Below, piece after piece: positions 10,829 to 28,542 of a stretch of DNA of 64,000 nucleotides. Each line of letters starts with the position of its first letter. Positions within the stretch are counted from its first letter, which is position 1. The stretch spans positions 310,001-374,000 of the forward strand of contig JAPPED010000003.1 in NCBI GenBank assembly GCA_028824295.1, in the 5' to 3' direction. Source of the DNA: Rhodospirillales bacterium. GTDB lineage: Bacteria > Pseudomonadota > Alphaproteobacteria > TMED109. Made by a program: the position numbers and the translations under genes. The notes under the pieces are model-generated. The model did not search any database. It had not been told where the DNA came from and saw only the letters and a list, made by a program, of their open reading frames with translations.

Positions 10829-11671
10829 GTGAACGACAATCTTCAGGCAGATCTCGGATTGGAAGGAAAGGTCGCCATCGTCGCGGGTGGCGGCGCGGCG
10901 GGCGACGGCATCGGCAATGGTCGCGCGGCAGCCATTCTCCTTGCGCGTGCGGGCGCCAAGGTGTTCGTTGTCGACCGGTCGCTCGAACTCGCCGAGGGCA
11001 CGGTTCGGATGATCGAGTCGGAGGGCGGCGTCGCGGTTGCCTACGAGGCCGACCTTACCGACGAGGACCAGTGTGCGGCGATGGTGGAAGCCGCTGTCGC
11101 TCAATTCGGACGGCTTGACGTTCTCGACAACAACATCGGTATCGCGAGCCTGAGCGCAGTGACCGAGGAGACGCAGAGCCAGTGGGAACGGGTGATGCGG
11201 GTCAATGTCGAGGCGATGTTCCTCAACGCCAAGCATGCTATCCCGGCGATGATCGAGAGCGGCGACGGCGGCGCGATCGTGAACATCTCCTCGATCGCTG
11301 CGTTGCGACCGCGTGGCATGTCCGCCTACTCCACGTCAAAGGCTGCGGTCATTGGCTTGACCCGCGCGATGGCGATCGACCACGCCGGTGACGGGATTCG
11401 CGTCAACTGCATCGCTCCAGGAGTGGTCTACACGCCGATGGTTTACGCGGATGGCATGTCGGAGGAGGCGCGCGAGCAGCGTCGGAAGTATTCGCTCCTC
11501 GGCATCGAGGGTACCGGCTGGGATATTGGCCGCGCAGTTGTCTTTCTCGCGTCGGGATGGGCGCGCTACATCACCGGCCAGACGCTCGTGGTTGACGGGG
11601 GCGGCACGCTCGGCGGGCCGCCGCGTTATAGCGGCACCGAGGCGGCTCAGGTGAGCGGCTATCACCAGTAG
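10829..11671 (+). CDS. Short-chain dehydrogenase/reductase (classical SDR)
   Basis: A 280-residue NAD(P)-dependent oxidoreductase. The cofactor loop is a variant with an insertion, 'GGGAAGDGIGNGRAAA' (about residues 20-35), in place of TGxxxGIG. The NNAG motif appears as 'DNNIGI', and the catalytic Ser-Tyr-Lys are in 'NISSIAALRPRGMSAYSTSKA'. 'DGGGTLGGPP' near the end is typical of the class. I prefer the GTG at 10829, behind 'cagggggc', because the family fold starts soon after. An ATG at 10787 would add 14 residues. Substrate unknown. Confidence 0.88.
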   Translation: MNDNLQADLGLEGKVAIVAGGGAAGDGIGNGRAAAILLARAGAKVFVVDRSLELAEGTVRMIESEGGVAVAYEADLTDEDQCAAMVEAAVAQFGRLDVLDNNIGIASLSAVTEETQSQWERVMRVNVEAMFLNAKHAIPAMIESGDGGAIVNISSIAALRPRGMSAYSTSKAAVIGLTRAMAIDHAGDGIRVNCIAPGVVYTPMVYADGMSEEAREQRRKYSLLGIEGTGWDIGRAVVFLASGWARYITGQTLVVDGGGTLGGPPRYSGTEAAQVSGYHQ

Positions 11672-11755
11672 TAGTTGGCGGCAAACGCTTTCCGGGCCCT
11701 TTACGCAGATGGGATCACCACAATTCTGCCTGCCCTTGAACGATTGAACGCAAAC

Positions 11756-11785
11756 TTGATTGTATCGGCGAAATGTCAGAATACT
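11756..11785 (+). promoter_or_regulatory. Candidate sigma-70 promoter of the GHKL ATPase operon
   Basis: TTGATT (11756-11761) and AATACT (11780-11785) are separated by 18 bases in an AT-rich stretch about 75 bases before the TTG start at 11860. Each box differs from consensus at one or two positions. This is the best-looking promoter in the 188-base gap, but no experiment or conservation supports it here. Confidence 0.35.
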
Positions 11786-11859
11786 ATTGAGGTGTATCCA
11801 GACAGCATGTCGCCACTGGCTATGCTTTAGGCCAATATGCAGCCACTTGGAGAGATAAC

Positions 11860-13047
11860 TTGAGCGGAGCACGTACCATCAACATCTTTCGAGGCGATGG
11901 TATGCGCGAATACGAGCAACATATGTGCGACTTTCGCCGGGGAGAGGTAGCACTGAGACTTCCTAGGGAAATTACTCACGGAGGTGCCCTTGGTCGGTCG
12001 GTATCCTTTGCCCAACTAATTGCTACATGGGCTGCTCATTCGTCGGAAAGATATGCGCGTACAACCCTCTTGCCTGACGATCATGACAGTCATGAACGAT
12101 TTGTTTCGCGTTTGCATGGATTGGCGGCCGCATACTACGCAAATCGTCTTCTTGCAGCTGACGGAGCGACGATCCTTAGGCGAACACTGCTTCAAGCGGC
12201 TATTCCGCGAATTCACGCTATGAATAAGCGCCAATTTGCACAGACGGCCAAGGGCCCGACGGCCGAACTTGTATTTGTCATTGGTGCCCGCAATGAATTT
12301 CACTCTGCAGCATATCGGGAAAAGCCAACACTGGCACAACTGATGGACTCCGAACAACATGGTAACTTAATTGTTTCTGCAAACGAAATGAACGCCCTGA
12401 TTAGCAATATTCTGGTCAAACTGAAGGTACCATCGTTAGATCTTGATCGGCTGTCGCCGTTGCTAGGGCGTGAAACGGTTTCGCTAGGGGATTTACTTCA
12501 CGAAACATTTCGGAATACAGCCGAACACGCGTACTTGGACCTTGACGACCGAATTCCGAAGGAGGGTCTTCGTTGCATTCTCATCGCGATTCGCAATATG
12601 CAGCCAGGGCAAATACAAGCCAACGCCATTGTTTCCGCCGAACATCAGCACCTCAGTCGCTACGTGAGGCGCCTCAGCAGACGCGCGTCCGTCGCTCGTC
12701 GAAGTTTGGTTTGCTTGTTCGAACTCTCGGTTTTCGATACAGGGCCGGGTTTCGCCGGCACCATGGAGTTGCAGTCGGATGCCAGCGATATAGATCGCGT
12801 AGCGCATTGTTTCCGAGATTACGTTTCCAAGAAGCCTGGCCCCAATTCTGGCTTGGGACTAGGACGAGTACTTAAATCTGTTCATTCGCTCGATGGTTAT
12901 TTGCGCGTGCGAACTTCTACCGCTGAAGTGTTCTTCTCCGCGGCCACTCCAATGCCGTCAGATACAGGACCCGTGCCGAGCGTTGTCGGCGGACTACCCA
13001 AGGTGGTTGGAACAGCAATCACCATTGGCATTCCGCTCGAACTGTAG
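11860..13047 (+). CDS. GHKL-fold (histidine-kinase/Hsp90-type) ATPase, first gene of a candidate defence operon
   Basis: A 395-residue protein. Its C-terminal half is a GHKL ATPase: N-box 'HETFRNTAEHA' (214-224), G1 'DTGPGF' (293-298) and G2 'NSGLGLG' (329-335). No HisKA dimerisation helix with a phospho-acceptor histidine and no transmembrane segment is seen, so it is probably a soluble ATP-driven switch, not a sensor kinase. The N-terminal 180 residues are unrecognised. The TTG start at 11860 is supported by 'ggagag' 5 bases upstream. The stop overlaps the next gene by one base (TAGTG), which indicates coupling. Base composition is visibly lower in GC than the flanks. A role in defence is inference from the adjoining type I restriction locus. 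Confidence 0.75.
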   Translation: MSGARTINIFRGDGMREYEQHMCDFRRGEVALRLPREITHGGALGRSVSFAQLIATWAAHSSERYARTTLLPDDHDSHERFVSRLHGLAAAYYANRLLAADGATILRRTLLQAAIPRIHAMNKRQFAQTAKGPTAELVFVIGARNEFHSAAYREKPTLAQLMDSEQHGNLIVSANEMNALISNILVKLKVPSLDLDRLSPLLGRETVSLGDLLHETFRNTAEHAYLDLDDRIPKEGLRCILIAIRNMQPGQIQANAIVSAEHQHLSRYVRRLSRRASVARRSLVCLFELSVFDTGPGFAGTMELQSDASDIDRVAHCFRDYVSKKPGPNSGLGLGRVLKSVHSLDGYLRVRTSTAEVFFSAATPMPSDTGPVPSVVGGLPKVVGTAITIGIPLEL

Positions 13048-15260
13048 TGCTGCCGAAAATGTACTCCTTCCTCCTGGTCATGCCAATCGATGAGGTCACG
13101 ACGACCCTCGAGGTCGTTTATCCGAGTCATGAAGCAAGCAACGAGCATCTGGAGCACGGGCTAAAGCAGCTAGCTGAAAGCTACAACCGCAGGAGCCCGC
13201 CCAGCCGTCTAATTGTCATATGTCCGTCCGGTATTGAGCAGCGGATACGGGATATTTATGTGGCCAACGCGCAGGTGTTCAATCCTCGCTTGATATCCAC
13301 CTCCCATGTTACTGTGGCCCCATTTGACCAGTGTGGCCAGTTCATTTCGGATGGCCTCGTCCATTTGAAGGCGACGGACACTCATTGGCACATTGACGAC
13401 AATTTCCTTGTGCGATTGGCCAATAGCGGTATCGAACAAATCTTTGACAATAACAAGACCATTCTTCATGCGCCACACGGCTACGTCTTCCGTAAGCCGT
13501 CGGGTCGCGAGGAAGACATTTTCGTTCGTGCTGGCAACATGCTGCGAACGCCCGACTGCCTAGCAGTATTCAACCATTTGTTGCTCCGCAGATTGCCACG
13601 CGGCTGCAGTCAGTTGTTCATCGACAGCTTCACGATATTGTCTTTTGCCATCGGCCTACAATCGATAGTTAGTTACTTCCGTCACATACACCCGTGCCTT
13701 CCAGCTCTTGCTATCCATAATACCCACTCGTATGAAATCAGTTCTGAATTTAGGATTCCTAATCAAGCGAACTACCTTGTCCTTATTTCTGCATCCACAT
13801 CAGGGAAATATGCCCGAAAGCTCGTGGAAGAGAACCAGGCGGAGCTAGACCGGATCATCCATCTAGTTGGGGTGGGATCCGCTAATAGCGATTTCCGGAA
13901 GTCATGCATCTATTTTAGGGAGCGGGAGAGACCACGATATACAACCGGAACTGGGAACCGCCAGAGTGGCATCATTGAGATCGACACGGAGGAGTTCCTC
14001 ATCGCGCAAGGTCCGCCACGTCCGGTCCGAATTAGTCACAGACATGTTAATCGGAAAGTTGCAGATGAATTTCAACAGCATTATTACAAAAAAGCATTGC
14101 TGTTCCACGAACCCGGCCCCCACTTGAGCTATGCACCATTTACTATTTCTGGGGAAAATGCCAAGAGCCCTTCGTCACCAATCGGGGAGTGGGTGCGTCG
14201 CCAGCTAGTCCATCAACTTCCGGCCTCGGCCCGTACCATTTTGCACATGAATGACAATAGTTCTCAATTGGTCGCAAAGTGGATCAACAAGGCCATCGGC
14301 GGACGTCGCAAGGTCATAAGCTTGAATGAACTCCGGGCAGATGGTTTAGATCCCGGTGGTCATGACGGTTCATTTGTCGTCATAGCCCATCAAGACCCCA
14401 GGTTCGATGCTCTGGGCGAAGCAGCAATCGCGCTCAGGCAGGCGGGACAGGCACACCGTCATTACGTCCTTTGCTACGCGTTCCCATCTTCAAGAGCGAA
14501 CTACGATCGTCTCAAAGCTGATTTACGCCTGCAGACCCGAGGGGGCCAATACGGCTGGTCGGAATTCTTGGTGCTTCCTGTCGGCTCTCCGAATCTGCAC
14601 GAAGCGCTCGCTGCCCATCGCAATCTCTACACTGACGAGGCAGTTGAGCCGCATCGAGCTGCGCTCGGCGACAATCTCACTGAAGCACTGACAACGCTCC
14701 GAGCGGCGCGTAGGATAGGCTGCGATGAACTCTTTCTACCGCGTGTTAATGGTGATCCCCTGAAGCTCCGCCATGGCTCTGTCTTTTTCGACGGACTAAA
14801 CCCTTCTTGCCTCACGCAGATCACCGTTTATGCCATGGTGTCAGCCGCGCTACAGAAAGCCAGGGAGCCTGCACTTTCTCCTAGGCAAACTTCTCTGCCG
14901 TCCGAACTAAGATTCGACGACAACCCTTTCGTCCGTTCAATTCTTGATCCAAGCATGTTTGCTCGCTTTAGCGACGGCATACTCCGATCATCGCTGCTCC
15001 GAGCGGCACGGCAGTCCGAACTAGATTACTCCGCCAGCGATAGTCTCAGCCGCCAGTTCATGACTATCTGCGAATCGGTCTTGGACAATCATGAAAACCC
15101 CGCTGGCGATGCTGCACTCGAATTTGTCTATGCACTTGCTACCAACAAGGTATTGCTTCGTAGAGCAGACCACCTAATCCTATGCGAGAAAATCGCTTCT
15201 GTCGAAGTACTTGATGCATTGTATAGCATAGTTCAAGATCCGGAAAAGCGTATTCTTTAG
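13047..15260 (+). CDS. Large protein of unknown family, partner of the GHKL ATPase (possible phosphoribosyltransferase-like folds)
   Basis: A 737-residue protein I do not recognise. The GTG start shares one base with the stop of the ATPase gene. No signal peptide or transmembrane helix is visible. Two stretches, about residues 150-240 ('FVRAGNMLRT', 'QLFIDSFTILSFAIGLQS') and about 395-500 ('TILHMNDNSSQLVAKWI', 'GSFVVIAHQDPRFDALGEA'), alternate beta strands and helices in a way that recalls phosphoribosyltransferase folds without a clean PRPP loop; this is a weak inference. The C-terminal 200 residues look helical. The TAG stop is followed in frame by about 110 codons encoding a hydrophobic segment and tail (see findings). 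The tight coupling shows the two proteins work together. Confidence 0.7.
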   Translation: MLPKMYSFLLVMPIDEVTTTLEVVYPSHEASNEHLEHGLKQLAESYNRRSPPSRLIVICPSGIEQRIRDIYVANAQVFNPRLISTSHVTVAPFDQCGQFISDGLVHLKATDTHWHIDDNFLVRLANSGIEQIFDNNKTILHAPHGYVFRKPSGREEDIFVRAGNMLRTPDCLAVFNHLLLRRLPRGCSQLFIDSFTILSFAIGLQSIVSYFRHIHPCLPALAIHNTHSYEISSEFRIPNQANYLVLISASTSGKYARKLVEENQAELDRIIHLVGVGSANSDFRKSCIYFRERERPRYTTGTGNRQSGIIEIDTEEFLIAQGPPRPVRISHRHVNRKVADEFQQHYYKKALLFHEPGPHLSYAPFTISGENAKSPSSPIGEWVRRQLVHQLPASARTILHMNDNSSQLVAKWINKAIGGRRKVISLNELRADGLDPGGHDGSFVVIAHQDPRFDALGEAAIALRQAGQAHRHYVLCYAFPSSRANYDRLKADLRLQTRGGQYGWSEFLVLPVGSPNLHEALAAHRNLYTDEAVEPHRAALGDNLTEALTTLRAARRIGCDELFLPRVNGDPLKLRHGSVFFDGLNPSCLTQITVYAMVSAALQKAREPALSPRQTSLPSELRFDDNPFVRSILDPSMFARFSDGILRSSLLRAARQSELDYSASDSLSRQFMTICESVLDNHENPAGDAALEFVYALATNKVLLRRADHLILCEKIASVEVLDALYSIVQDPEKRIL

Positions 15261-15590
15261 CGGCAGAACTACTATTCGACTGCTACTGTCATTGCCACGG
15301 TTGCTGTCATCTTTGCACTGATGGCTGGAAAGGTACACGCCGACCAGCCGGACACGCTGGAGGCGGATGTCGCTATTGCCAGTGGGGTATTTGAGCGCAA
15401 GCCAGCCATTCGGGACATTTTCCGCTGGGCGGATGAGCGAGCGCGTGCAGCCGTGGGTAATTCAGACGCTGTACGTGCCCAAGTGAACAAGCACAGCAGG
15501 GAACTGGAGACTTGCCATGTCAATGCCAAAGCCAAGGTTGAAAAACGACCCAACTACTCATCGACTACCAATACAGTCTTGTCACGGTAA
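15261..15590 (+). other. Open frame after the 737-residue gene encoding a possible membrane-anchored tail
   Basis: Directly after the TAG at 15258-15260 and in the same frame lies an open stretch of 109 codons. It begins with a strongly hydrophobic segment ('YYSTATVIATVAVIFALMAG') followed by a charged helical region. The only ATG in the first 80 codons is at 15321, inside the hydrophobic segment, with no ribosome site. It could be the C-terminal tail of the upstream protein cut off by a nonsense codon or reached by readthrough, or a separate protein using a non-standard start. It overlaps the next gene by 74 bases. Confidence 0.4.
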
Positions 15591-15759
15591 GAAAAAGGTC
15601 GGGCCGCTTCCCTATTTAGACGAAGCGGAAATAATCGGGGAATTGCGGACCAAGTTCATTCGGGAACGGGTTGAACAAGAACGAGACGCATTGACAGAAG
15701 AGGTGTTGCGGCACATTCAGCGTATATTGAACGGTAGGGATGAAGGCCCGGTGATATGA
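15517..15759 (+). CDS. Small helical protein of unknown function, third gene of GHKL operon
   Basis: An 80-residue protein. The ATG at 15517 has a good 'ggaga' ribosome site 7 bases upstream. The C-terminal half ('DEAEIIGELRTKFIRERVEQ') is charged and probably one long helix. Its stop overlaps the next start as ATGA (15756-15759). No family recognised. The overlap chain with both neighbours argues that it is a real operon member. Confidence 0.55.
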   Translation: MSMPKPRLKNDPTTHRLPIQSCHGKKKVGPLPYLDEAEIIGELRTKFIRERVEQERDALTEEVLRHIQRILNGRDEGPVI

Positions 15760-15971
15760 CAACCATGGAGAATGACGTGAGTCAATTCCACATCGATCTC
15801 TCAATCACATGCCTGAAATGCAATCGTGTGACCGTCATCGACGTGTCAGAGCCGGTCGGAGACGCTTCCACTGTCACGTGCAAGACATGTGGGACATGTT
15901 TCGGTCGCTTTCCTGCCTTCAGGAAGATGGTTATTGACGGAGTCAGCGAAATGCTTGGCGGCATTGGCTAG
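15756..15971 (+). CDS. Small zinc-ribbon protein, fourth gene of GHKL operon
   Basis: A 71-residue protein with two paired cysteines, 'CLKC' (about 19-22) and 'CKTC' (about 42-45) with a further 'C' at 48. This is the pattern of a treble-clef or zinc-ribbon nucleic-acid or protein binding module. It overlaps the upstream gene by 4 bases and ends the operon. The role is unknown. Small zinc ribbons in defence operons often recognise nucleic acid, but that is only analogy. Confidence 0.6.
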   Translation: MTTMENDVSQFHIDLSITCLKCNRVTVIDVSEPVGDASTVTCKTCGTCFGRFPAFRKMVIDGVSEMLGGIG

Positions 15972-16464
15972 ATTGTCCGTGTCATCGAATATACTCAATT
16001 TCTGGATGTTCACCATAGTCCCTATTATTTCAAGTTGACATCGGCCCCTGTCAAGTGAACCCAGCGGCGTAAGCAAGTAACAATTTCGTGAATTCGCTGC
16101 CGGTGGCGTGGTCATTATCGCATATAAGCCTCCGCCCCCGCGGCCGCATGGGCTTCGTCGCGACATTAGCCACAGATTTGCCTCCGTCGTGCCGGCGATT
16201 TTGCATCGCCGAAATCGGAATCCGTATACACTTTGATAACAGCCGGTTAGCGAATGCGTTACTTAAGAGAGTCCCAATTCTTTACCGCCGCAATGGTGCA
16301 ATTGGTTGAGGCCTTGGAAGTACGAGAGGGCACCAACCGTTCAGTCAGTGAGCAGTTTGGGGTGAACTCGAACTCGGTGAACAGGCCTGATAGACCGGAC
16401 AAAAGTCCAAGTATCGCCGTAAGTCAGCTGAACCGTATTCGTGGTGCCAACAAGTGTGTCCAGC
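15972..16464. other. Convergent intergenic region between GHKL operon and hsdR
   Basis: A 493-base gap between the ends of two convergent transcription units. I see no supportable gene; a 93-codon plus-strand frame at 16254 lacks codon or family support. A perfect 7-bp hairpin (CGGCGAT/ATCGCCG) lies at 16193-16211 without a T-run and could act as a weak bidirectional terminator. Confidence 0.4.
16193..16211. terminator. Candidate hairpin between convergent operons
   Basis: CGGCGAT (16193-16199), loop TTTGC, ATCGCCG (16205-16211): a perfect 7-bp stem with a 5-base loop. No T-tract follows on either strand, so an intrinsic terminator is only possible. Its position between two convergent operons is suggestive. 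Confidence 0.3.
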
Positions 16465-19400
16465 TTACACTGCAACAGCCGTTATCCGCACAGCCTCTAA
16501 CGCCTCCATTAACTCGTCTAGTTCTGCGGAGTTGAACAAACCGTCCGGCCCATGAGGTGCAATATCAGTGAATGGAGATTCATAAAGTCGGTCAGGGGCA
16601 ACCGCACCATGTTCTGTCAGGTGGTCAACCACGAGGTTCACGAACTCGATTTGATTGGCTGAAGGTGACTTTCCTGCAAGGAAAGTCTGCATGGCTTCTT
16701 TGGCGGCGTGGCGATCCATTCCCACTAGGGACCGCACGAGCAGTCCAAGTCCCTGGGATCTATTGGCTGCGCGCTGAATCGTGTCAGCCGTGCCGAGGCC
16801 GCTCGCAATGAACATCCGCTCCAACTCGCCGATGTCAGTCGTAGTGAGCGGTCTGTTCTTCCTCAGTTTTGCGATGGCGACGTGGTCGACATGTTCGCGC
16901 AGAAATGCACGAGCCTTAGCCGCGAACTTCGCTTGATCCGTTCCTGAGGCGAAGCTAGGCAGGTCAACGTGGATTTCGTCTCCCATGAGGTCCTCAAAAT
17001 CCGTGTAGATCGGTTTGCGTTGATGTTTGTCGATGAACTGAACAAGGTTCCGAATTCGACGACGCATGACTTCCAGGATTGGGACACTAACGTTCTGCCA
17101 CCACTCGTCCGTCTGAACGTCCAGGATGAGTGAGATTTGCTCTTGCACCACCGGGACGGCGGATTTTTCCTCGAGTAGTCCGGCAATCTGCTTCATCCGA
17201 TCACTGAGCCGAGCAAAGCTGGGCTCGTGCCGTAGCAGGCTGAGCTGCAGGCTTAGGACGAGCAGGTCGAACCGCTTGGCTTCTTCTTTCTCTGGGTCCA
17301 ACTCTGAAGGCAGGCCGGCCACTTTGTGTGAGAGTTCTGTCAGGGCCTCTCTCGGCAATGACATCCATGATTCAGGTTTGGCGTATTTCTCGATGAACCG
17401 GCGCCGTGGGCGTACCACGAAGTTGTCTACATTCATCGCAGCGACTTCGCGCTGCAAGAGATCGGCGAGAGACCACCGAACCGCGTCGTTCGTTTCTGGA
17501 TCGGAGTGGGTGGGCTCAGACTCGTCGAGCCTACCCGGTTTGGTTTCCCCGCCCTGATGGTCCAGCGTGGCAATCAACTCGAGCCGGGCGTTGAACAGGC
17601 GCTTACCAAGCGATTCGTTGCCGGATCCCTCCGTGGCCGGAATATTCTGGCTGAAATATTCGAGGTTCTGGCAGTAGTCGAAGATATAGAACATGTCCTT
17701 GTCTTTGCCGGGGCCGAACAAACCGGGACAAAGCCGCGTACCACGCCCCACCATCTGCCAGAACTTGGTCTTCGAGCGCACCAGCTTGAAGAAAACCAAG
17801 TTCACAACCTCGGGGATGTCGATGCCGGTGTCGAGCATGTCCACTGAGATCGCGAGGTGTGGGTTCTGCTCCTTGTTCGAGAAGCTGTCGATCAGGCTCT
17901 GCGTGTATTCCGTCTTGAAGGTGATGACGCGGGCGAACTCGCCCTTGTAGGTTGGATAGTTGGCGTTGAAACGCTCGGCGATGAACTCCGCATGGGCTTG
18001 GTTTTTGGCGAAGAGGATTGTCTTGCCAAGACGATCGCCGCCGGCGACGGCGAGCCCACGGGTCATGAGGTGCGCCAGCACCTTGTCCACGGTGTTCTTG
18101 TTAAACAGCCACTTGTTGACCGCCTCGGCTTCGACTCGGTCAGGCACCGCGCCGTCGTCGTCCCATTCCAGCGCGTCCCACTGGTCCTTTTCCTCTTCCG
18201 ATAGCTCGTGGTAGGTGATGCCCTCGCGCTGAAACCTGAGCGGTACCGAGACGGCCTTGGGCGGCACGAGGAAGCCGTCGCGCACCGCCTCCTCTAGGGA
18301 GTAGGCGTCGGTCGGCACTCCGTTCTCTAGGTCGAACAGGCTGTAGGTGTTTCGGTCCACCTCGTCCTTGGGCGTCGCCGTAAGCCCGACCAGTAGGGAG
18401 TCAAAATGGTCGAAGATGGCGCGATACTTCTGGAACACGGAGCGATGCGCCTCGTCGATGACCACCAAGTCGAAGTGGCCCACCCCGAAGCGACGCTGGC
18501 CGTCGCGAGCCTCATCTATCAGCCCCATCATGGTCGGATAGGTCGAAATGTAGACGCGTCCCTCGGCGTTCCTCTCGGTGACCAGGTTGACGGGCGAGGC
18601 GTCGGGCAAGTGACGTTTGAAGGCATTGACCGCCTGATTCACCAGCGCCACCCGGTCGGCGAGAAAGAGCACCCGCTTGGCCCAGTTGCTTCGCATCAGC
18701 AGGTCGGAAAGTGCGATCACCGTACGCGTCTTGCCAGAGCCCGTCGCCATCACGAGCAGTGCCTTGCGGTCGTAGTCGCGCTCGAACGCCTCAGCGATAC
18801 GCCGAATGGCGCGGGTCTGGTAGTGGCGCTCGACGATCTCCGAACTGATTGGAGCCACCGCCAGCGTGCGGCGTGTCTTCCGGCGCTGGGTAAGCAACTC
18901 CAACTCTGCCTTCTTGTAGAAACCCTGAACTCGGCGCGGCGGGTAGCGGGTGTCGTCCCACATCCAGTGGTCGTAACCGTTCGAGTAAAAGATAACCGGC
19001 CGTTGCCCAAACTCGTGCTCCAGGCAATCGGCGTAGAGTTTGGCCTGTTGCTGCCCGACGCGGGCGTCGCGCCGCGTTCGCTTGGCCTCAACTAGACCGA
19101 GCGGCTTGCCATCGTCGCCCCAGAGCACATAGTCCACGTAGCCCTTGCCCTCGGCATTGGGCATCCCGCTGACCCCGAACTCCCGGTCGTGGTCTTGATC
19201 CAATGGCCAGCCGGCTTCCTTCAGCAGCAGGTCTATGAAATAGTCGCGGGTTTCGGCCTCGGAGTAGTCGTGCGTGTCCGGTTGCGTTGCAGCCTCTTTC
19301 TTAGCCTTGGCTACCTCCTCTCTCAAGCGCTGGAGTTCTTCATCGAGCACGCCCTTGTCCGCAAGCAGAGTTGTGAGTTTCTCGTCGTGCTCCCGGAGGC

Positions 19401-19878
19401 CTTCCGCAAGCGTGCGTAGTTGCCCTGCCGTCTGCTGTTTGGTGGTCGCGGGCCGGGGCAGTGCCGCAGGATCGAAGGCAAGTCCAGGCTCTGGGCGCCC
19501 GGCGCGGGCGTACGTTCGTGCAAACCAATAGGTTACGTGGAAGAGTTCGCGCAGCGCCGTCAGCGCATCCGCTTCCGGAATAGCGCGGTGGCCGTGCACC
19601 GCGCGGTTGCCGAGCGTGTTGAGAACCCGGGCCTTGCTGAATACCGCCTCGCCTGCGGCCTTCTTGAAGCTCGGCTCGTGAATCAGCGCCGAGAGTTTGT
19701 CCTGATAGGGCAATCGGAGGGTCGCGTCGTGCTTGTATGCCCAGTTCACCGCCAGTTCCAGCGTGCGCCGGGCGTAGAAGCAGGCCGTGCGGGTATCCCC
19801 ATGCACTGACGCCTCAGATCTCGCAGCGGAGTCGAACACTGCTGGCCATTCGCGCTGGAGGAAGGTGAACTGGCTCAC
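16465..19878 (-). CDS. hsdR: Type I restriction enzyme, endonuclease/translocase subunit HsdR
   Basis: A 1137-residue restriction subunit. Residues 1-125 resemble the DUF4145-type helical domain found at the N-terminus of EcoEI-like HsdR, followed by a coiled coil (about 150-200). The nuclease site is Asp249 with 'EAK' at 264-266. The superfamily 2 helicase motor has 'ATGSGKT' (378-384), 'DEAH' (475-478), 'GLTATP' (about 499-504) and motif VI '[11 protein letters not shown]'. All are intact, so restriction should be functional. It is the last gene of the hsdM-hsdS-unknown-hsdR operon and overlaps the unknown gene by 4 bases (ATGA at 19875-19878). Confidence 0.96.
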
Positions 19879-20852
19879 ATCCTCCCTCCTAAGACGCGAT
19901 CCATCAATTTCCCGACGAACCCGCGCTCCTGCCGGTTTCCCCCGGAGATTCCGCCATCGTATATCGGCAAGGCCGGAACCGCAGGAGCGCCTGTTCTGTT
20001 CATCGTACTACCGGCGTAGATCGCGTCCGCACTCAACCGGCGTTCGAGATAGGGCGTGAAGCCCGTGAGCAGAATCGACATAGCCACCATGTCACGCATC
20101 TCGATCGCACGTAGTGCTCCCTTCGCGCGGCTGCCGTGTCGGATACCAGGATAGTCAGAGGCGAAGCCGTAGAGCTTCTTGAGGGCCTCTTTAATTGTCG
20201 CGTGCGGCCACGAGTTGAGTTGTTCACACATGTCGCCCAGCGTGTTCTTTGTTACACCCGGATCGAGTGCACCAATCGCTTCCAACAACATGAACTGCTT
20301 GCCGATGCACGTCTTGATCCGACCGTCCGTGCACCCGAAGCGAAGGTCTCTTAACGCGTCCTCATATTCCCTCATCAACTGGTCGAGGTGTAGGTCTTGA
20401 CCGGCGAGCGCGCGGAGATCACTAACCAAGCTCGCGAATAGGCCGGGCAGGGTCGGACAAAGTACGCAGGGTCGGCGTAGGTCGTAGCGGAGATTAAACT
20501 TGCCGATGAAATCGGCGAGCAGGTTGAAATAGCGATTGGTCAACTGGTCGCCACCCAACTCTTCGAGCGCGTCGTGCGCCGCCTCGAAGAATTCGGCGAG
20601 CGCGGGCTCATCGCCAAGATCGTTCGCCGTGATCGCCTCGAATGCTTCGCGGCTTTGTATAGGACTGTCGATTATGTCGGCGAGATCCTCGACCGAGGGA
20701 CGCGGAGACAAAGCGGGCACAAGGGCGCGGTACAGCTCGCAGAAGATGTCTTCTGGAAGACCTTCGTTATCCTCGTCCAGGGGCTGATCGATGAGCGGCA
20801 GCCAGATTTCGCGCCACGTCTCCGCCCATACGCCAATGAGATCGCCCCGCAC
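19875..20852 (-). CDS. Type I RM-associated protein of unknown function (Abi C-terminal-like)
   Basis: A 325-residue predicted cytoplasmic protein between hsdS (2-base gap) and hsdR (4-base overlap), so it is translated as part of the RM operon. The C-terminal region '[20 protein letters not shown]' followed by '[21 protein letters not shown]' (about 230-280) resembles the helical C-terminal domain of abortive-infection proteins (Abi_C/HEPN-like). The N-terminal 200 residues are helical and acidic with a few cysteines (near 130). No classical HEPN Rx4-6H is obvious. It could be an accessory effector or a regulator of restriction. Function unknown. Confidence 0.7.
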
Positions 20853-20854
20853 CG

Positions 20855-22015
20855 CTAAAGATTTCCTCTGAAAGCATGCTGCTGAAGAGAGGCAAGAAGA
20901 TCTTCGAGACCATCAAGCGCTCTCCGAAATGGGACGGTCAACCTCTCAATCTCCGAAACGCGATCTGCGTACTCTCGCTGCTTTGCTTCAGGAGGGACGG
21001 GTACGACAACACTGCGCACCAGCCCGATATTTAGGTTCTTAACTGTAGCTCCGGGTGCCCGCCGCGAAAATTCCGTGTAGAGCGCCCGTGAGCCAAGAAG
21101 ACTGTAGTAGTAGTCGGGAATTACATTCGACTTGCGAGGAGAAAGCACTAGCCATCCATCATGAATACAGCCCGAAGTCCGCATGATGTACGGCCTGCCA
21201 AAGCTCATCGAGTTGGTGAGAAGGAAGTCGCCGGGATTGACTCTGCGCGACCGCTTTGCCCCCTCCGGTTTGATCTTTCTCTTGGTCGCTGTGATGTACT
21301 TTGCGTTCTCTGGGGCATCGCCGATCATGATCCAGTTCACCCCGTCTCGACTCTCAGTAATGTAATCGTCGATCGGGCGGGGCGATCCACCGCGGGAGAT
21401 TTCAAACAAGTCCTCAAGTGCGCTTGTCGGCCATCGCTTCGGATTCGTGGCGGGGTCACCGAACATGTTGAGAAAGAATGATTTGGTAAGGGTATCGAGT
21501 CGGTTAAGGGCAGCTCTGCGGTTGGCCCGCATCGCGTTCGCTTTGTCCAGGATCTCCGCAATCCGCCGCTGCTCAGGGAGGGGAGGGAGGGGGATCTGGA
21601 TCTTGAACACCTCGGCAGGTCTGGCTCTGAGTAGCGACCCCCCAACGCCCGAAACTGTTCGCATAAAAGCGGAGTGAAAAGCATCTCCGACCAACACCCA
21701 GCGCAAAAAACTTGGCCAAATGCGCTTGTCTCTGAAAATGATCCATTCGCCCGATGCGATCTGACGATGCCTGCTAACTGGCCCAACAACGCATGCTCGA
21801 CGGATGTGCGGAACAATGCGCGAGATCATCACGTCGTCTGGCTGGACTGCTTTCTTTGAAGAACCAATTTTGGAGCCAGCAACTACTTCAGGAGCGCCGG
21901 CATCGAAAGCGGGGATGCTATAAAGCTCGAACACTTCGTCCTGGTGCTTCTTGGGATCTACAGTAACGCCTTTGCGAAGTGCAATGTCTCCCATTGAAAT
22001 CATGTTCCATTTCAT
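20855..22015 (-). CDS. hsdS: Type I restriction-modification specificity subunit HsdS
   Basis: A 386-residue DNA-recognition subunit with two target-recognition domains (about 1-150 and 195-345). Each is followed by a helical spacer; the central one starts 'PLPPLPEQRRIAEILDKANA', a hallmark of HsdS. The two TRDs differ in sequence, which implies a bipartite asymmetric target. It overlaps hsdM by 4 bases (ATGA, 22012-22015). The ORF is full length, so the complex should be assembled. The target sequence cannot be read from the protein. Confidence 0.94.
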   Translation of the reverse strand: MKWNMISMGDIALRKGVTVDPKKHQDEVFELYSIPAFDAGAPEVVAGSKIGSSKKAVQPDDVMISRIVPHIRRACVVGPVSRHRQIASGEWIIFRDKRIWPSFLRWVLVGDAFHSAFMRTVSGVGGSLLRARPAEVFKIQIPLPPLPEQRRIAEILDKANAMRANRRAALNRLDTLTKSFFLNMFGDPATNPKRWPTSALEDLFEISRGGSPRPIDDYITESRDGVNWIMIGDAPENAKYITATKRKIKPEGAKRSRRVNPGDFLLTNSMSFGRPYIMRTSGCIHDGWLVLSPRKSNVIPDYYYSLLGSRALYTEFSRRAPGATVKNLNIGLVRSVVVPVPPEAKQREYADRVSEIERLTVPFRRALDGLEDLLASLQQHAFRGNL

Positions 22016-23565
22016 CTCAGCATCGCCTTCAACTCCTTCATCCCCAATTGAATGTCCTCCTCGAGTTTGGCCAGCTCCGCGAGGATTTCTTGCGGTGGGC
22101 GGTGCTCAACCTCCTTGTGTTCCACTTCTTTGTACCGGTTGAGCGAGAGGTCGTAGCCTTGCGAAGCAATTTCGGCTTTAGGCACGCAAAAGCTCTGCGC
22201 GGTCCGCGGGCGCTTACGCTCACCTCCCGCGCGGTCTGCCCAGCGTGCAATCACGTCAGGCAGGTTGTTCTTCGCATGATCGGCCGCGCAGAGCGCTGTG
22301 TGCGGCACAGCCCCGAGCTTGTCCTCAGGCAAGAGCGGCGTACGCTTGTCATCGAGACTCCAGCCGTCCGCTGTAACATCATAGAACCAGACGTAGTCGG
22401 TGCCGCCAGAGTTCGTTTTGGTGAAAAATAGGATTGAGGTGGAGACCCCTGCGTAGGGTTTGAACGCGCCGCCCGGTAGCGACACTATGGCGTCAAGTTT
22501 CTGGTCTTCGATCAAGATACTCCGCAACTGCTTGTGTGCCTTACTTGAGCCGAAAAGGACACCATCAGGCACGATCACTGCGGCCCGGCCACCGTGCTTC
22601 AACAGCCGAAGAAAGAGCGCGAGGAAGAGCAGCTCGGTCTTCTTGGTCTTAACGATTTGCAGGAGGTCCTTGGCGGTGTTCTCATAGTCGAGGCTGCCGG
22701 CGAAGGGCGGATTGGCCAGCACTAGCGTGAACCTTTCTTCCTCGCCGGCGTGGTCCTCCGCCAGCGAGTCCCGGTAGCGGATGTCGGGGCTCTCTACGCC
22801 GTGCAGCAGCATGTTCATGCTGCCGATACGCAGCATGGTATTGTCGAAGTCAAAACCGTGGAATAGGTCGTGGTGGAAGTGCTCACGTAGCTTCGCGTCG
22901 TGCAGCAGATTCGGATAGCGGTCGCGCAGGTACTCGCCGGTCGCGACCAGGAAGCCCGCCGTGCCGCAGGCCGGGTCGCAAACGACATCAGCGGGCAGGG
23001 GTGCGGCAAGTTCCACCATCATCCGGATGATGTGACGCGGTGTGCGGAACTGCCCATTCTGTCCGGCGGTGGCAATCGTGCCGAGCATGTACTCGTAGAC
23101 GTCGCCCTTGGTATCGCGCTCCTCCATCGGCACCTTGTCGAGCAGGTCTACAACCTTGGCCAGCAGTGCTGGGGCCGGAATGGTGAACCGCGCGTCCTTC
23201 ATGTGGTGCGCGTATGTCGAGTCGGCGCCGCCGAGCTGGCGAGTCAGGTCGTCGCGAAGAAACGGGAAGACGTGTTCTCCAACAACCATAAACATCTCGG
23301 CAGGGGCGAGGTGCTTGAAGCGCGACCAGCGGAAGTCCTCGTAGGATCGACCATTCGCGTCCTTGCCTTTCGGAAAGACCCGCCGCTCCATCGGTTGTTT
23401 GAGCCGATTGGCCCTGTTTTCTTCCAGAGTGTGCAGGTCGTCGAGCCGGCGAAGGAACAGCAGGTACGTGATCTGTTCCATCACCTCTAACGGGTTCGAG
23501 ATGCCGCCCGACCAGAACGAGTCCCAGATGCGGTCAATTTGGTTCTTGATGTTGCCTGTGATCAT
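22012..23565 (-). CDS. hsdM: Type I restriction-modification methyltransferase subunit HsdM
   Basis: A 517-residue N6-adenine methyltransferase. The N-terminal HsdM domain begins 'NIKNQIDRIWDSFWSGGISN'. SAM motif I is 'DPACGTAG' (197-204) and catalytic motif IV is 'NPPF' (285-288). I choose the start at 23565 because the family begins 'MITGNIK'. The ORF extends to 23691, but the added residues are not family-like. It is the first gene of the RM operon, so methylation protein is made first. All catalytic residues are intact. Confidence 0.95.
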   Translation of the reverse strand: MITGNIKNQIDRIWDSFWSGGISNPLEVMEQITYLLFLRRLDDLHTLEENRANRLKQPMERRVFPKGKDANGRSYEDFRWSRFKHLAPAEMFMVVGEHVFPFLRDDLTRQLGGADSTYAHHMKDARFTIPAPALLAKVVDLLDKVPMEERDTKGDVYEYMLGTIATAGQNGQFRTPRHIIRMMVELAAPLPADVVCDPACGTAGFLVATGEYLRDRYPNLLHDAKLREHFHHDLFHGFDFDNTMLRIGSMNMLLHGVESPDIRYRDSLAEDHAGEEERFTLVLANPPFAGSLDYENTAKDLLQIVKTKKTELLFLALFLRLLKHGGRAAVIVPDGVLFGSSKAHKQLRSILIEDQKLDAIVSLPGGAFKPYAGVSTSILFFTKTNSGGTDYVWFYDVTADGWSLDDKRTPLLPEDKLGAVPHTALCAADHAKNNLPDVIARWADRAGGERKRPRTAQSFCVPKAEIASQGYDLSLNRYKEVEHKEVEHRPPQEILAELAKLEEDIQLGMKELKAMLR

Positions 23566-23939
23566 TTCGAGGACTTTGCGGGTTTGGGTTCGTGGCGCGA
23601 CTGCCGAATACTCTGCGGCAGTATTCAGGTCGATGGTGCTTCGCTGACGGTGAGCCACCACGTGGAGAAAAGCTTCCATATGGCCGCCCAACAGGCATTT
23701 CTCGGCTTCTTGTCATCATCCCAATGCTCCGGTGCCATTGCTCTACTCGATCTGCCCTGAACTAGAGTCGAGGTCCATTGCAGCGCACATGCCTATTCTT
23801 GCGGCCGCCAGAGAATCAGACCGACATGCCGAGTACCGGTGATTCGTTGCGGAGAGGTCCCGCGCCCGTTCAGGAGGGTATGCATAACGCGGACAAAAGC
23901 ACGCAGTGAGTCTACCGTGCCTGGCCACAATGGGTATTT
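23566..23939. other. Upstream region of hsdM, no gene seen
   Basis: A 374-base gap between the divergent hsdM gene and a plus-strand pseudogene. It must carry the hsdMS promoter. I find no strong promoter consensus and no supportable gene. Confidence 0.4.
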
Positions 23940-24895
23940 GCCGCTACCAAAGCTGCCCCACTCTAGGAATCGGCGCCCAGCGCCTCGCCGACAGACCACG
24001 GTGGCGTACGAAGGGCGGTTGGCTGTCAAGCTGTACGCCGCTGGCGAGTTTGTGCCCACGTTCGAGACTTTCGATGCGGTCCCGGAGGGGAAGGCGCACA
24101 TGTTCCACGCGGTGCCGAGCTACTGAACCAACAAGCACCCATCCATCCAGTTCTTCGGTGCCGCGCAGGGTGGCCTGGTCCTGCAGGAGCACAACGTTTG
24201 GCCGTACTACGGTGGTGGCCAGAAGCTCCGGGATGAGCTCTACGGCTAATTCGATCTCAAGGCATTCGTGGCCGGGAACACCGGGACCCAGATGGGAGGC
24301 TGGTTCCAGAAGGAGATCAACTCCCTCTCGGACTTCCAGGACCTCAAGATGCGGATCCCCGGCCTCGGGACGGAAGTTATCAACCGGCTTGGCGGCACGG
24401 CGGCCAACCTGCCCGGCGGCGAGATCATGCCCGCCCTCCAGTCCCCGGTGATCGATGCCACGGAATGGGTCGGCCCCTGGAACGACTTGGCGTTCAGCTT
24501 CTACAGGATCACGAAGAACTACTACGGCCCGGTCTTCCATGAGCCCAGCGCCACCCTCGAGCTCTCGGTGAACAAGGGAGGCCTGGGACGGGCTCGAGAC
24601 CGACCTGCAGACGGCCGTGGAGAATGCCGCCGCGGCCACCAACGTCCGCATGCTTGCGGAATTCCTGCCGCCAACGTCGAATCCCAGCGTGTGCTGGTCG
24701 AGGAGTATGGCGTCCAGATACGCCCGTTTCCGGCGGAGGTCTTCAGGGAGATGCTGCGCCACAGCGATGATGTCGTGCGAGCCACGGCGCAGGAAGACGA
24801 CCCGGCGCGCCGCAACTTCGAGAGTTGGCAGCGTTTCCGGGCCTACGTGTACCCGCAACCCGTACGCGGAACAGGGCTACCTGCAACTCCGGGGC
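23940..24895 (+). pseudogene. Decayed TRAP transporter substrate-binding protein (DctP/TakP family)
   Basis: Translated across frames, this reads as a TRAP-type solute-binding protein close to the alpha-keto-acid binder TakP: 'LGIGAQRLADR', 'AVKLYAAGEFVPTFETFDAV', 'GGWFQKEI', 'LKMRIPGLGTEVINRLGG', 'GEIMPALQSPVIDATEWVGP', 'NYYGPVFHEP', 'VLVEEYGVQIRPFPAEVFRE'. It carries in-frame stops at 24124-24126 and 24247-24249. A frameshift near 23990, a shift near 24585 and a compensating one near 24665 also break it. The signal peptide region is missing. No dctQ or dctM gene is nearby, so it is a stranded, inactive fragment of a lost operon. Confidence 0.85.
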
Positions 24896-25125
24896 TGAAC
24901 GGGAACCGGTGCAACGGCGGCGCATCCGCCGGGTCCGGGAGCCGTTCCGGGTTCCCGGGCGGCGCGCCGGTCGATGGCAGACCCTGATCGGTCGCCGCGA
25001 CCGCGATCAATCTATTGGGTCGGACGATGTCGACCGTGCGAGGACGTCCTGTATCGGGAACGATGCTTACCGCGGCTCCCTGCAGCCCAGGGATCGACGA
25101 TCTCGCCCCCGGTGTCCGCGCCATG

Positions 25126-26654: not shown

Positions 26655-26725
26655 CTGACGGATGGGCGGTCGCGTCGCCACGTTCCACGCTGTTGGCGGA
26701 GCCAACGGGATGGAGCGGGAGGCCG

Positions 26726-27745
26726 ATGCACGGATGGGAGACGAGGATGCTGCTGCGGCATTATCTGGAACGGGGCATGTCGAAGGCGGAGCTGTCGCGG
26801 CGCTTCGGGGTGAGTCGCCGGACGATCTACAGCTGGATAGCGTCCGGCGACCTGGACCGCGATCTGGCGGCTGGCGGGACGCGGTACTCGCCGCGGCCGC
26901 GGCGGGTGCACAAGCTGGACCCGTACAAGGGGATCATCGACGCCCGGCTGACGGAGTTTCCCCGGTTGTCGGTGCAGCGGCTGTTCGACGAGGTGCGCGC
27001 GGCCGGCTATGCGGGGAGCTACGGCCGGGTCCGGGACTACGTCCGCACGGTCCGGCCGCGCGATCCGGTCGAGCCCGCCAACCGCTTCGAGACGCCGCCG
27101 GGCCGGCAGGGCCAGGTGGATTTCGGCAGTTTCACGCTGCCGTGGGGGCGGCGCCACGCGCTGCTGGTGGTGCTCGGCCATTCCCGGATCCTGTGGCTGC
27201 GGTTCTATCCCCGGCCGACGATGGCGGTGCTGATCGACGGGCTCGAGAGTGCGTTCGCCCGCTTCGGCGGCGTGCCGCAGGAGCTGCTGTTCGACCAGAT
27301 GCGCGCGGTCGTGCTCGCGGACGACCGCGCGGGCAGCGGCGGGCTGATGCTGAACGCCGAGTTCCTGCGCTTCGCCGCGCACTGGGGGTTCATGCCGCGC
27401 TCGTGCCGGCCGTACCGGGCCCGCACCAAGGGCAAGGTGGAACGGCCGATCCGCTACCTCAGGGAGAGCTTCTTCTACGGCCGTGCCTTCGCCAACGACG
27501 CCGATCTCAACGCGCAGGCGGCGCGCTGGGTGGACGGCACCGCCAACGTCCGCCGGCACGGCACCACCGGCGAACGTCCCGTCGACCGCTTCGAGCGCGA
27601 CGAGCGCCGCGCGCTCGGCCCGCTGGCGGGCCGGCCCTACCGGCGCCTCGGCGCCACGCAGGCCTCGGCCCCGGCGCTGCGACCGCGCCCCGCCGTGCCG
27701 GTGCAACGGCGTGCGCTGCACGAGTACGCGGCGGCCGTCCAGTGA
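26726..27745 (+). CDS. istA: IS21-family transposase IstA
   Basis: A 339-residue DDE recombinase that pairs and joins the IS ends. A helix-turn-helix is at the N-terminus ('MSKAELSRRFGVSRRTIYSW', about residues 16-35). The rve core has its first Asp in 'GQVDFGSF', the second in 'ELLFDQMRAVVL' and the Glu in 'ARTKGKVERPIRYL'. All are present. I take the ATG at 26726; an in-frame ATG at 26693 is possible. Its stop overlaps the GTG start of istB (GTGA), the usual coupling in IS21. Confidence 0.95.
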   Translation: MHGWETRMLLRHYLERGMSKAELSRRFGVSRRTIYSWIASGDLDRDLAAGGTRYSPRPRRVHKLDPYKGIIDARLTEFPRLSVQRLFDEVRAAGYAGSYGRVRDYVRTVRPRDPVEPANRFETPPGRQGQVDFGSFTLPWGRRHALLVVLGHSRILWLRFYPRPTMAVLIDGLESAFARFGGVPQELLFDQMRAVVLADDRAGSGGLMLNAEFLRFAAHWGFMPRSCRPYRARTKGKVERPIRYLRESFFYGRAFANDADLNAQAARWVDGTANVRRHGTTGERPVDRFERDERRALGPLAGRPYRRLGATQASAPALRPRPAVPVQRRALHEYAAAVQ

Positions 27746-28542
27746 CCGCGGCCGCGATGAGCCGGCGCGACCGTGTGCGGGCGATGCTCGCCGACCTCAA
27801 GATGCCCGGCGCCCTCGAGGCCGTCGACGGCATCCTCGCCCAGGCCGACAACGGCGGCGCCACCGCCAGCGAGGCCATCGAGCAGCTGCTGCAGGCGCAG
27901 ATCGTGCTGCGCAACAACCGCCGCCTGCAGACCGCCATGCGCGCCTCGCGCCTGCCCGCCGTGAAGACCCTGGCCGAGTTCGATTTTGCCTTCCAGCCCA
28001 GCGTCAAGCGCGAGCAGATCGAGAGCCTGCACGAGCTCGGCTTCGTCACACGCGCCGAGAACGTGATCCTGCTCGGCCCGCCCGGCGTCGGCAAGACCCA
28101 CCTCGCGATCAGCCTCGCCATCGCCGCCGCCGAGTCCGGACGGCGCGTCTACTACGGCACCCTCGCCAGCCTGGCGGTCGAGTCGCTCACCGAGGCCAAG
28201 ACCGCCGGCCACCTCGCCCGCCGGCTGAAGGTGCTGACCCATCCCGCCCTGCTCGTCATCGACGAGATCGGCTACCTCCCCGTCAGCCAGGACGGCGCGA
28301 CGCTGTTCTTCCAGCTCATCAACGCACGCCACGAGCGGGCCTCGACCGTGCTGACGTCGAACAAGGGCTTCGAGGAGTGGGGCGCCACCCTCGGCGACGA
28401 GGTCATGGCGGCCGCGCTCATCGACCGCCTCCTGCACCACTGCCACATCGTCAACATCCGCGGCAACAGCTACCGGATGCGCGAACACCAGGACCTGCTG
28501 CGGAGCCGGACCGACAGCCACCGCGAGGAGATCCCGGGATGA
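27742..28542 (+). CDS. istB: IS21-family helper ATPase IstB
   Basis: A 266-residue AAA+ ATPase of the DnaC/IstB group that directs target choice. Walker A 'GPPGVGKTH' and Walker B 'LLVIDEIGYLP' are intact. The GTG start at 27742 overlaps the istA stop. An ATG five codons later is an alternative. Full length for the family. Confidence 0.95.
   Translation: MTAAAMSRRDRVRAMLADLKMPGALEAVDGILAQADNGGATASEAIEQLLQAQIVLRNNRRLQTAMRASRLPAVKTLAEFDFAFQPSVKREQIESLHELGFVTRAENVILLGPPGVGKTHLAISLAIAAAESGRRVYYGTLASLAVESLTEAKTAGHLARRLKVLTHPALLVIDEIGYLPVSQDGATLFFQLINARHERASTVLTSNKGFEEWGATLGDEVMAAALIDRLLHHCHIVNIRGNSYRMREHQDLLRSRTDSHREEIPG

Follow-up and report, generated by a model that had tools for sequence, protein, structure and literature searches.

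The locus described here raises the question of what two overlapping genes, A (11860-13047) and B (13047-15260), do beside a type I restriction-modification (RM) locus in the genome of a Rhodospirillales bacterium. The window analyzed is a stretch of 64,000 nucleotides (contig JAPPED010000003.1, positions 310,001 to 374,000), and coordinates refer to it unless stated otherwise. On the basis of sequence comparisons and genomic context, AB is best regarded as a two-gene, horizontally acquired anti-phage defense candidate that often resides inside or beside restriction systems. We assign this reading a probability of about 0.8. The analysis covers the extent of the conserved unit, the architecture of the two proteins and the neighborhoods in which their relatives occur.

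A catalogued two-gene candidate

Both genes lie on the plus strand. Gene A encodes a 395-residue GHKL ATPase from a TTG start, with GGAGAG five bases 5' of it, and gene B a 737-residue protein. They overlap by one base (TAGTG), and B may begin at GTG 13047 or ATG 13059. In PADLOC-DB 2.0, A matches the model PDC-M65A (PDLC04764; E 7e-15, residues 201-358) and B matches PDC-M65B (PDLC04765; E 6.3e-56). Both models are matched by an adjacent pair in the same order. The clade of the window is divergent, with a long stem branch and an altered loop in B, and nothing was found that excludes membership. AB is already catalogued as the candidate PDC-M65, which corrects the initial annotation of the locus as an undescribed system. 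Later papers describe PDC models as candidates that arose from a guilt-by-embedding approach and are unpublished or unvalidated (PMC11811056, PMC12988326). No paper mentioning PDC-M65 or publishing its function was found, and the PDC-M papers that were found concern other numbers. Neither protein has a Pfam or NCBIfam match at E values up to 1. Profiles of A, of B and of B's two phosphoribosyltransferase (PRTase) regions had no significant match in a sequence search of the PDB.

Relatives of B were gathered by homology alone, with context unused. They were found on 11 plasmids, in 3 other genomes of the 385 searched in the class, and at 80 loci from a genome collection. Loci with B occur in Pseudomonadota, Bacteroidota, Campylobacterota, Acidobacteria, Planctomycetota and Myxococcota, and the presence of AB is patchy (about 1% of class genomes). 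At nearly all loci with enough contig, A lies immediately 5' of B, and the two genes mostly overlap slightly or stand a few bases apart; in a Spirosoma plasmid copy, one extra gene separates the two. The conserved unit consists of two genes, A and B.

The initial annotation had described a tightly coupled operon of four genes, the last two being plus-strand open reading frames (ORFs) of 80 residues (15517-15759) and 71 residues (15756-15971), the second with a CxxC..CxxC zinc-ribbon-like motif. The overlaps themselves are real, TAGTG between A and B and ATGA between the two small ORFs, but a gap of 256 bases separates B from the 80-residue ORF. At the homologous loci, even the four closest (B 47-52% identity), nothing related to ORFs P0003-P0005 was found. 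P0004 and P0005 have no relatives in 60 related genomes, and the 80- and 71-residue ORFs have none in viral contigs. Because of the gap and the lack of relatives at homologous loci, the two small ORFs are placed outside the system, and a four-gene operon is ruled out. A further ORF (15321-15590) overlaps the 80-residue ORF in a different frame. A phage origin was rejected, as 50,697 phage records gave no match and viral contigs gave three.

Base composition sets the pair apart, as had been noted initially: GC content is 51-54% at the AB region versus 64-69% upstream. At third codon positions (GC3), it is 0.49 in A and 0.55 in B, compared with 0.78 in the flanking SDR gene and 0.59-0.75 in the RM genes. 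The difference between AB and the RM genes indicates that their histories are probably distinct.

Architecture of the two proteins

By sequence comparison and structure prediction, A is a GHKL protein with full ATP-site motifs, related to STAS-like/GHKL kinase-like proteins. The AlphaFold2 model (predicted local distance difference test, pLDDT, 92.6) comprises an N-terminal alpha/beta domain (~1-130) and the GHKL domain (~131-395). All boxes of the latter are intact (E215..N219, D293xG295xG297, G331xG333L). Across 67 homologues, N219, D293, G295, G297, G331 and G333 are invariant and E215 is present in 62, which bears out the initial call of a GHKL ATPase with intact N, G1 and G2 boxes. The top structural match of the domain is SpoIIAB (Z 10.3, root-mean-square deviation 3.4, 139 residues); histidine-kinase catalytic domains score within one Z unit of it, and Foldseek placed topoisomerase VI-B first for A (~125 columns). 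In profile comparisons, A matched the STAS-like/GHKL family over nearly its full length with a probability of 94-97% (E 1e-7 to 7e-10), and a reversed control gave 0.3%. Probabilities were 14-17% for RsbW-type HATPase_c_2 and 18-23% for HATPase_c_3, the comparison sets being small. An assignment of A to the MORC/Hsp90 type, which the initial annotation mentioned for known defense modules, is not supported, being weaker than the STAS-like/GHKL match.

For two members of the STAS-like/GHKL family, the next gene downstream encodes a small DUF4325 (STAS-like) protein. The N-terminal domain of A is colinear with the family in the full-length comparison; taken alone, it reaches E 0.24 against a STAS profile and E 0.04 against the STAS-like/GHKL family. 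These values are not significant and do not support identifying it as a STAS domain by itself. W57 in this domain is conserved in 55 of the 67 homologues and could, speculatively, be the counterpart of the DNA-stacking aromatic residue of CapK/VapK. Separately, three proteins of ~420-455 residues (L112, L113 and L118, from G110 and G112) have a STAS-like region at the N terminus and DUF4325 at the C terminus of a single polypeptide that also holds a GHKL domain; these are possibly kinase-substrate fusions.

B is predicted to be a multidomain protein (AlphaFold2 model, pLDDT 90.3). It comprises an N-terminal domain (1-116), a probable degenerate PRTase-like domain (117-330), a PRTase fold (335-598) and a helical C-terminal domain (~600-735). 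Region 335-598 matches XPRT (Z 12.4), APRT (about 12) and PurR (11.7). Region 117-330 has the element order of orotate phosphoribosyltransferase and, locally, an SGR..F motif that also occurs in E. coli PyrE. It aligns with 335-598 colinearly but weakly, and is probably a first PRTase-like domain, as judged by motif and topology and not by fold search. Two PRTase-like regions had been proposed initially; the predicted fold upholds the second, and the first now stands on motif and topology. The similarity of these regions to E. coli PyrE is not significant, the match being confined to a 17-residue motif, and the N-terminal domain found no support as a third repeat.

Both would-be phosphoribosyl pyrophosphate loops of B are devoid of the acidic pair in 73 homologues (LISASTSG; VVVAA..xxG). 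Its absence makes PRTase catalysis unlikely, and on this ground B was not taken to be a catalytic PRTase. In the first region, the polar residues D193, S228 and S248 are invariant and S252 is present in 71/73 homologues, which suggests that a phosphate or nucleotide pocket is retained; the STSG loop likewise belongs to the conserved polar residues. The highly conserved C-terminal helical domain contains the family's strongest motif, R[FY]NDG[IV]IQA..LRA....EL.Y, and R640, D643, R652 and E692 are invariant there. In the window clade, the second loop is changed and the glycine of 68/73 homologues is lost.

No known toxin domain was detected in B by Pfam, PADLOC or fold searches. Likewise, no nuclease, receiver or known DNA-binding domain was recognized in either protein, and a hidden Markov model (HMM) search of the window's A and B gave no Pfam match to a histidine-bearing dimerization domain or a receiver domain.

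Restriction systems and a defense hotspot

Type I RM genes flank AB in 16 of the 80 loci, as read from gene maps with weak single matches left out. In 14 of these 16, AB is contiguous and co-directional with hsd genes. The arrangement varies: AB follows hsdR (L016, L021, L026, L067, L074, L082) or hsdS (L042, L088), precedes hsdM (L025, L078, L083) or hsdR (L071), or lies between hsdS and hsdR (L031, L075). From 67 hsdM matches in 190 class genomes, the background was estimated at ~0.14 per Mb, assuming a mean genome of 2.5 Mb. About 0.2 hsdM genes would thus be expected in 1.2 Mb of flank, compared with ~14 seen, an enrichment that is approximate for other phyla because the background comes from one class. 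Even at one hsdM per Mb, the Poisson probability is 6e-11. Mapped on the B tree, the RM label of 14 rows takes no fewer than 10 changes to explain, which makes the association a recurrent one. Among the two nearest genes on each side of AB, type I RM families rank top in PADLOC and Pfam scans.

Other defense genes are also found nearby. In a Myxococcales copy (L076), AB is flanked by DrmMI and DrmA within a DISARM locus; three other copies lie near DrmMI- or type IIG-like enzymes. Qat genes come after AB on one plasmid, and another copy is near TIR genes. Across the 80 loci, the neighborhood check thus yielded 16 with type I RM and a few more with DISARM or type IIG genes; the remaining loci were not all scored, and many have ordinary neighbors.

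Some of these neighborhoods hold further genes of interest. Two AB-carrying RM operons contain additional insertions: an AbiEii gene between hsdM and hsdS (L016, 2995-3966 of that locus) and a HEC-05-like gene between hsdS and hsdR (L021, 3186-4937 of that locus). At three loci, on a Rhizobium plasmid (L009) and in Bosea (L053) and Mesorhizobium (L072), thyX, encoding an FAD-dependent thymidylate synthase, lies beside AB in the same direction. These three are 63-79% identical among themselves, and L009 also carries a dGTPase gene next to B. The thyX and dGTPase neighbors suggest a link to nucleotide metabolism.

Within its own genus, the window's AB sits at a site of variable content. In four congeners, the left flank is 82-84% identical up to about 11,665 and diverges beyond. 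Congener G001 aligns again at 23963-24938. The intervening cargo region (11666-23962, left boundary about 11665) holds AB and the RM locus in the window, and none of the six congeners searched has B. At the same site, G002 carries type III RM genes, an HKD-Snf2 helicase and AbiU; G001 carries a DRT system (RT_UG6 with nitrilase and DnaG-like genes); and G006 carries a PDC-S18 gene. The site in G005 spans about 2.7 kb, in which the one gene tested has no PADLOC match. The site after the SDR gene (L108-L111 in congeners) is a genus-level defense hotspot, with AB and the type I RM locus as this genome's cargo.

The RM locus itself (16465-23691, minus strand) was identified with Pfam and PADLOC. 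It is convergent with AB, a neighbor that is not co-transcribed with it here. It comprises hsdM (22012-23691), hsdS (20855-22015) and hsdR (16465-19878), in agreement with the hsdMSR locus first annotated, together with a previously unmentioned 325-residue gene between hsdS and hsdR (19875-20852). This gene has no Pfam match and a weak C-terminal PADLOC match to PDC-S32 (E 1.9e-8), making it a second embedded candidate in the same island. Elsewhere in the window, a plus-strand ORF (26662-28542) in a stretch of 62-74% GC matches the PADLOC model 'DrmD' (E 1.3e-50, residues 395-610); the model may be misnamed or the ORF may be on the wrong strand.

Possible mechanisms and comparison with known systems

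The defense reading draws on the PDC-M65 matches, the pairing of A with B, low GC3, the match of A to STAS-like/GHKL proteins and the PRTase fold of B without its acidic pair. It is further supported by the RM linkage, the DISARM copy, the Qat neighbor and the genus hotspot, all of which independently strengthen a role that the initial annotation had proposed from local context. Several points weigh against it. The evidence is contextual, and another candidate of the same series, PDC-M63AB, gave no defense when tested (PMC12409345). Most of the 80 loci have no recognized RM gene in their flanks, and the window's own pair is convergent with its RM locus in a separate operon. The window's B departs from 6 of 35 near-invariant positions. 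No STAS or DUF4325 domain was detected in B, which leaves the analogy with CapK without its usual partner.

How AB might act is a more tentative matter. We propose, with limited confidence, that A responds to damage as an ATP switch or kinase and thereby activates B beside restriction. A would sense damage arising from phage infection or from restriction of phage DNA, such as single strands or ends. Through ATP-driven dimerization or serine phosphorylation, it would then switch on a resting B, the regulated effector or sensor. Once active, B would target a nucleotide-type ligand or a cellular component, causing growth to stop as a second line behind restriction. Restriction itself would generate the DNA-damage signal for A, which would explain the recurrent embedding. 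It is rather doubtful that AB represents a new mechanism in the full sense, in which damage would turn on A, a STAS-like/GHKL kinase or ATP switch, and A would phosphorylate or remodel B, a pseudo-phosphoribosyltransferase effector. Such a built-in second line would fire when restriction makes DNA ends or fails, with an output unlike known effectors.

Other explanations account for parts of the same evidence. AB could conceivably be a restriction accessory, in which A uses ATP to clamp DNA or the RM complex and B serves as a structural adaptor, a proposal that we likewise hold to be doubtful. The pair would then modulate restriction, for example against modified DNA or anti-restriction proteins, and not provide independent defense. 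The copies between hsdS and hsdR (L031, L075) and inside DISARM (L076) fit such a role, as does the apparently non-catalytic nature of B as a PRTase. However, most copies have no flanking restriction genes and must act without them, and AB joins several RM types and layouts. The tight overlap of A and B and the recurrent type I RM linkage could also reflect a guard resembling a toxin-antitoxin system, in which A, alone or together with the RM complex, keeps a toxin B inactive until a phage inhibits restriction and so releases it, as proposed for PrrC with EcoprrI. A precedent is the silencing of PrrC by a linked type I RM enzyme (PMC2610378). We consider such a guard unlikely, given the lack of a known toxin domain in B and the many copies without RM.

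Less probable still is a regulatory pair outside defense, in which A would act as a kinase of anti-sigma-like type and B would sense nucleotides and regulate housekeeping or stress genes. The SpoIIAB- and histidine-kinase-like fold of A, the appearance of PurR among the fold matches of B, the three thyX-linked loci and the many loci with ordinary neighbors are in line with this. It is countered by a type I RM linkage far above background, the DISARM embedding and the hotspot, as well as by the patchy presence of AB in the class and the lack of a recognized DNA-binding domain in either protein.

These analyses turn AB from a nameless HMM pair in a defense database into a defined two-protein module with domains, conserved residues and a testable link to restriction. 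What is new is that the unit is bounded at two genes, that A is related to STAS-like/GHKL proteins, that B can be read as a pseudo-PRTase, that embedding in RM loci was measured, and that there is hotspot evidence at this site. Should the switch model prove true, it would reveal how a backup response is coupled to restriction enzymes, and the known defense sensors or effectors would gain a degenerate phosphoribosyltransferase.

Several known systems resemble AB in part. In PrrC/EcoprrI, an accessory gene likewise accompanies a type I RM locus (PMC2610378); PrrC, however, is an anticodon nuclease with an ABC-type ATPase, and no such domain was found in A or B. Type III retrons (PMC12548924) also include a phosphoribosyltransferase-like protein in a defense system. 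The likeness is one of description, and neither a reverse transcriptase nor a non-coding RNA lies beside AB. GHKL ATPases are linked to RM or defense in paraMORC/MORC proteins, GHKL-Shedu (VcSduA, PMC12137116) and HEF_HK/Response_reg_2 pairs (PMC8011034), but the similarity of A to HATPase_c_3 is weak and no nuclease or receiver domain was recognized in the pair.

Parallels also exist with CapK-CapS and VapK-VapS-VapC. CapK and VapK are STAS-like/GHKL kinases that phosphorylate STAS partners, CapK being activated by single-stranded DNA (PMC13373217). A is likened to them by architecture, through its nearly full-length match to STAS-like/GHKL proteins, and may be a kinase. Its partner differs, being a PRTase-type multidomain protein and not a STAS protein. 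AB is not filed with these families because an adjacent STAS-domain substrate is absent, B having no Pfam match and a predicted PRTase fold. The resemblance extends to genomic setting: about 20% of each family adjoins restriction systems, and nearly 20% of loci with capK and capS have an RM operon on one side and an immune operon on the other (PMC13373217).

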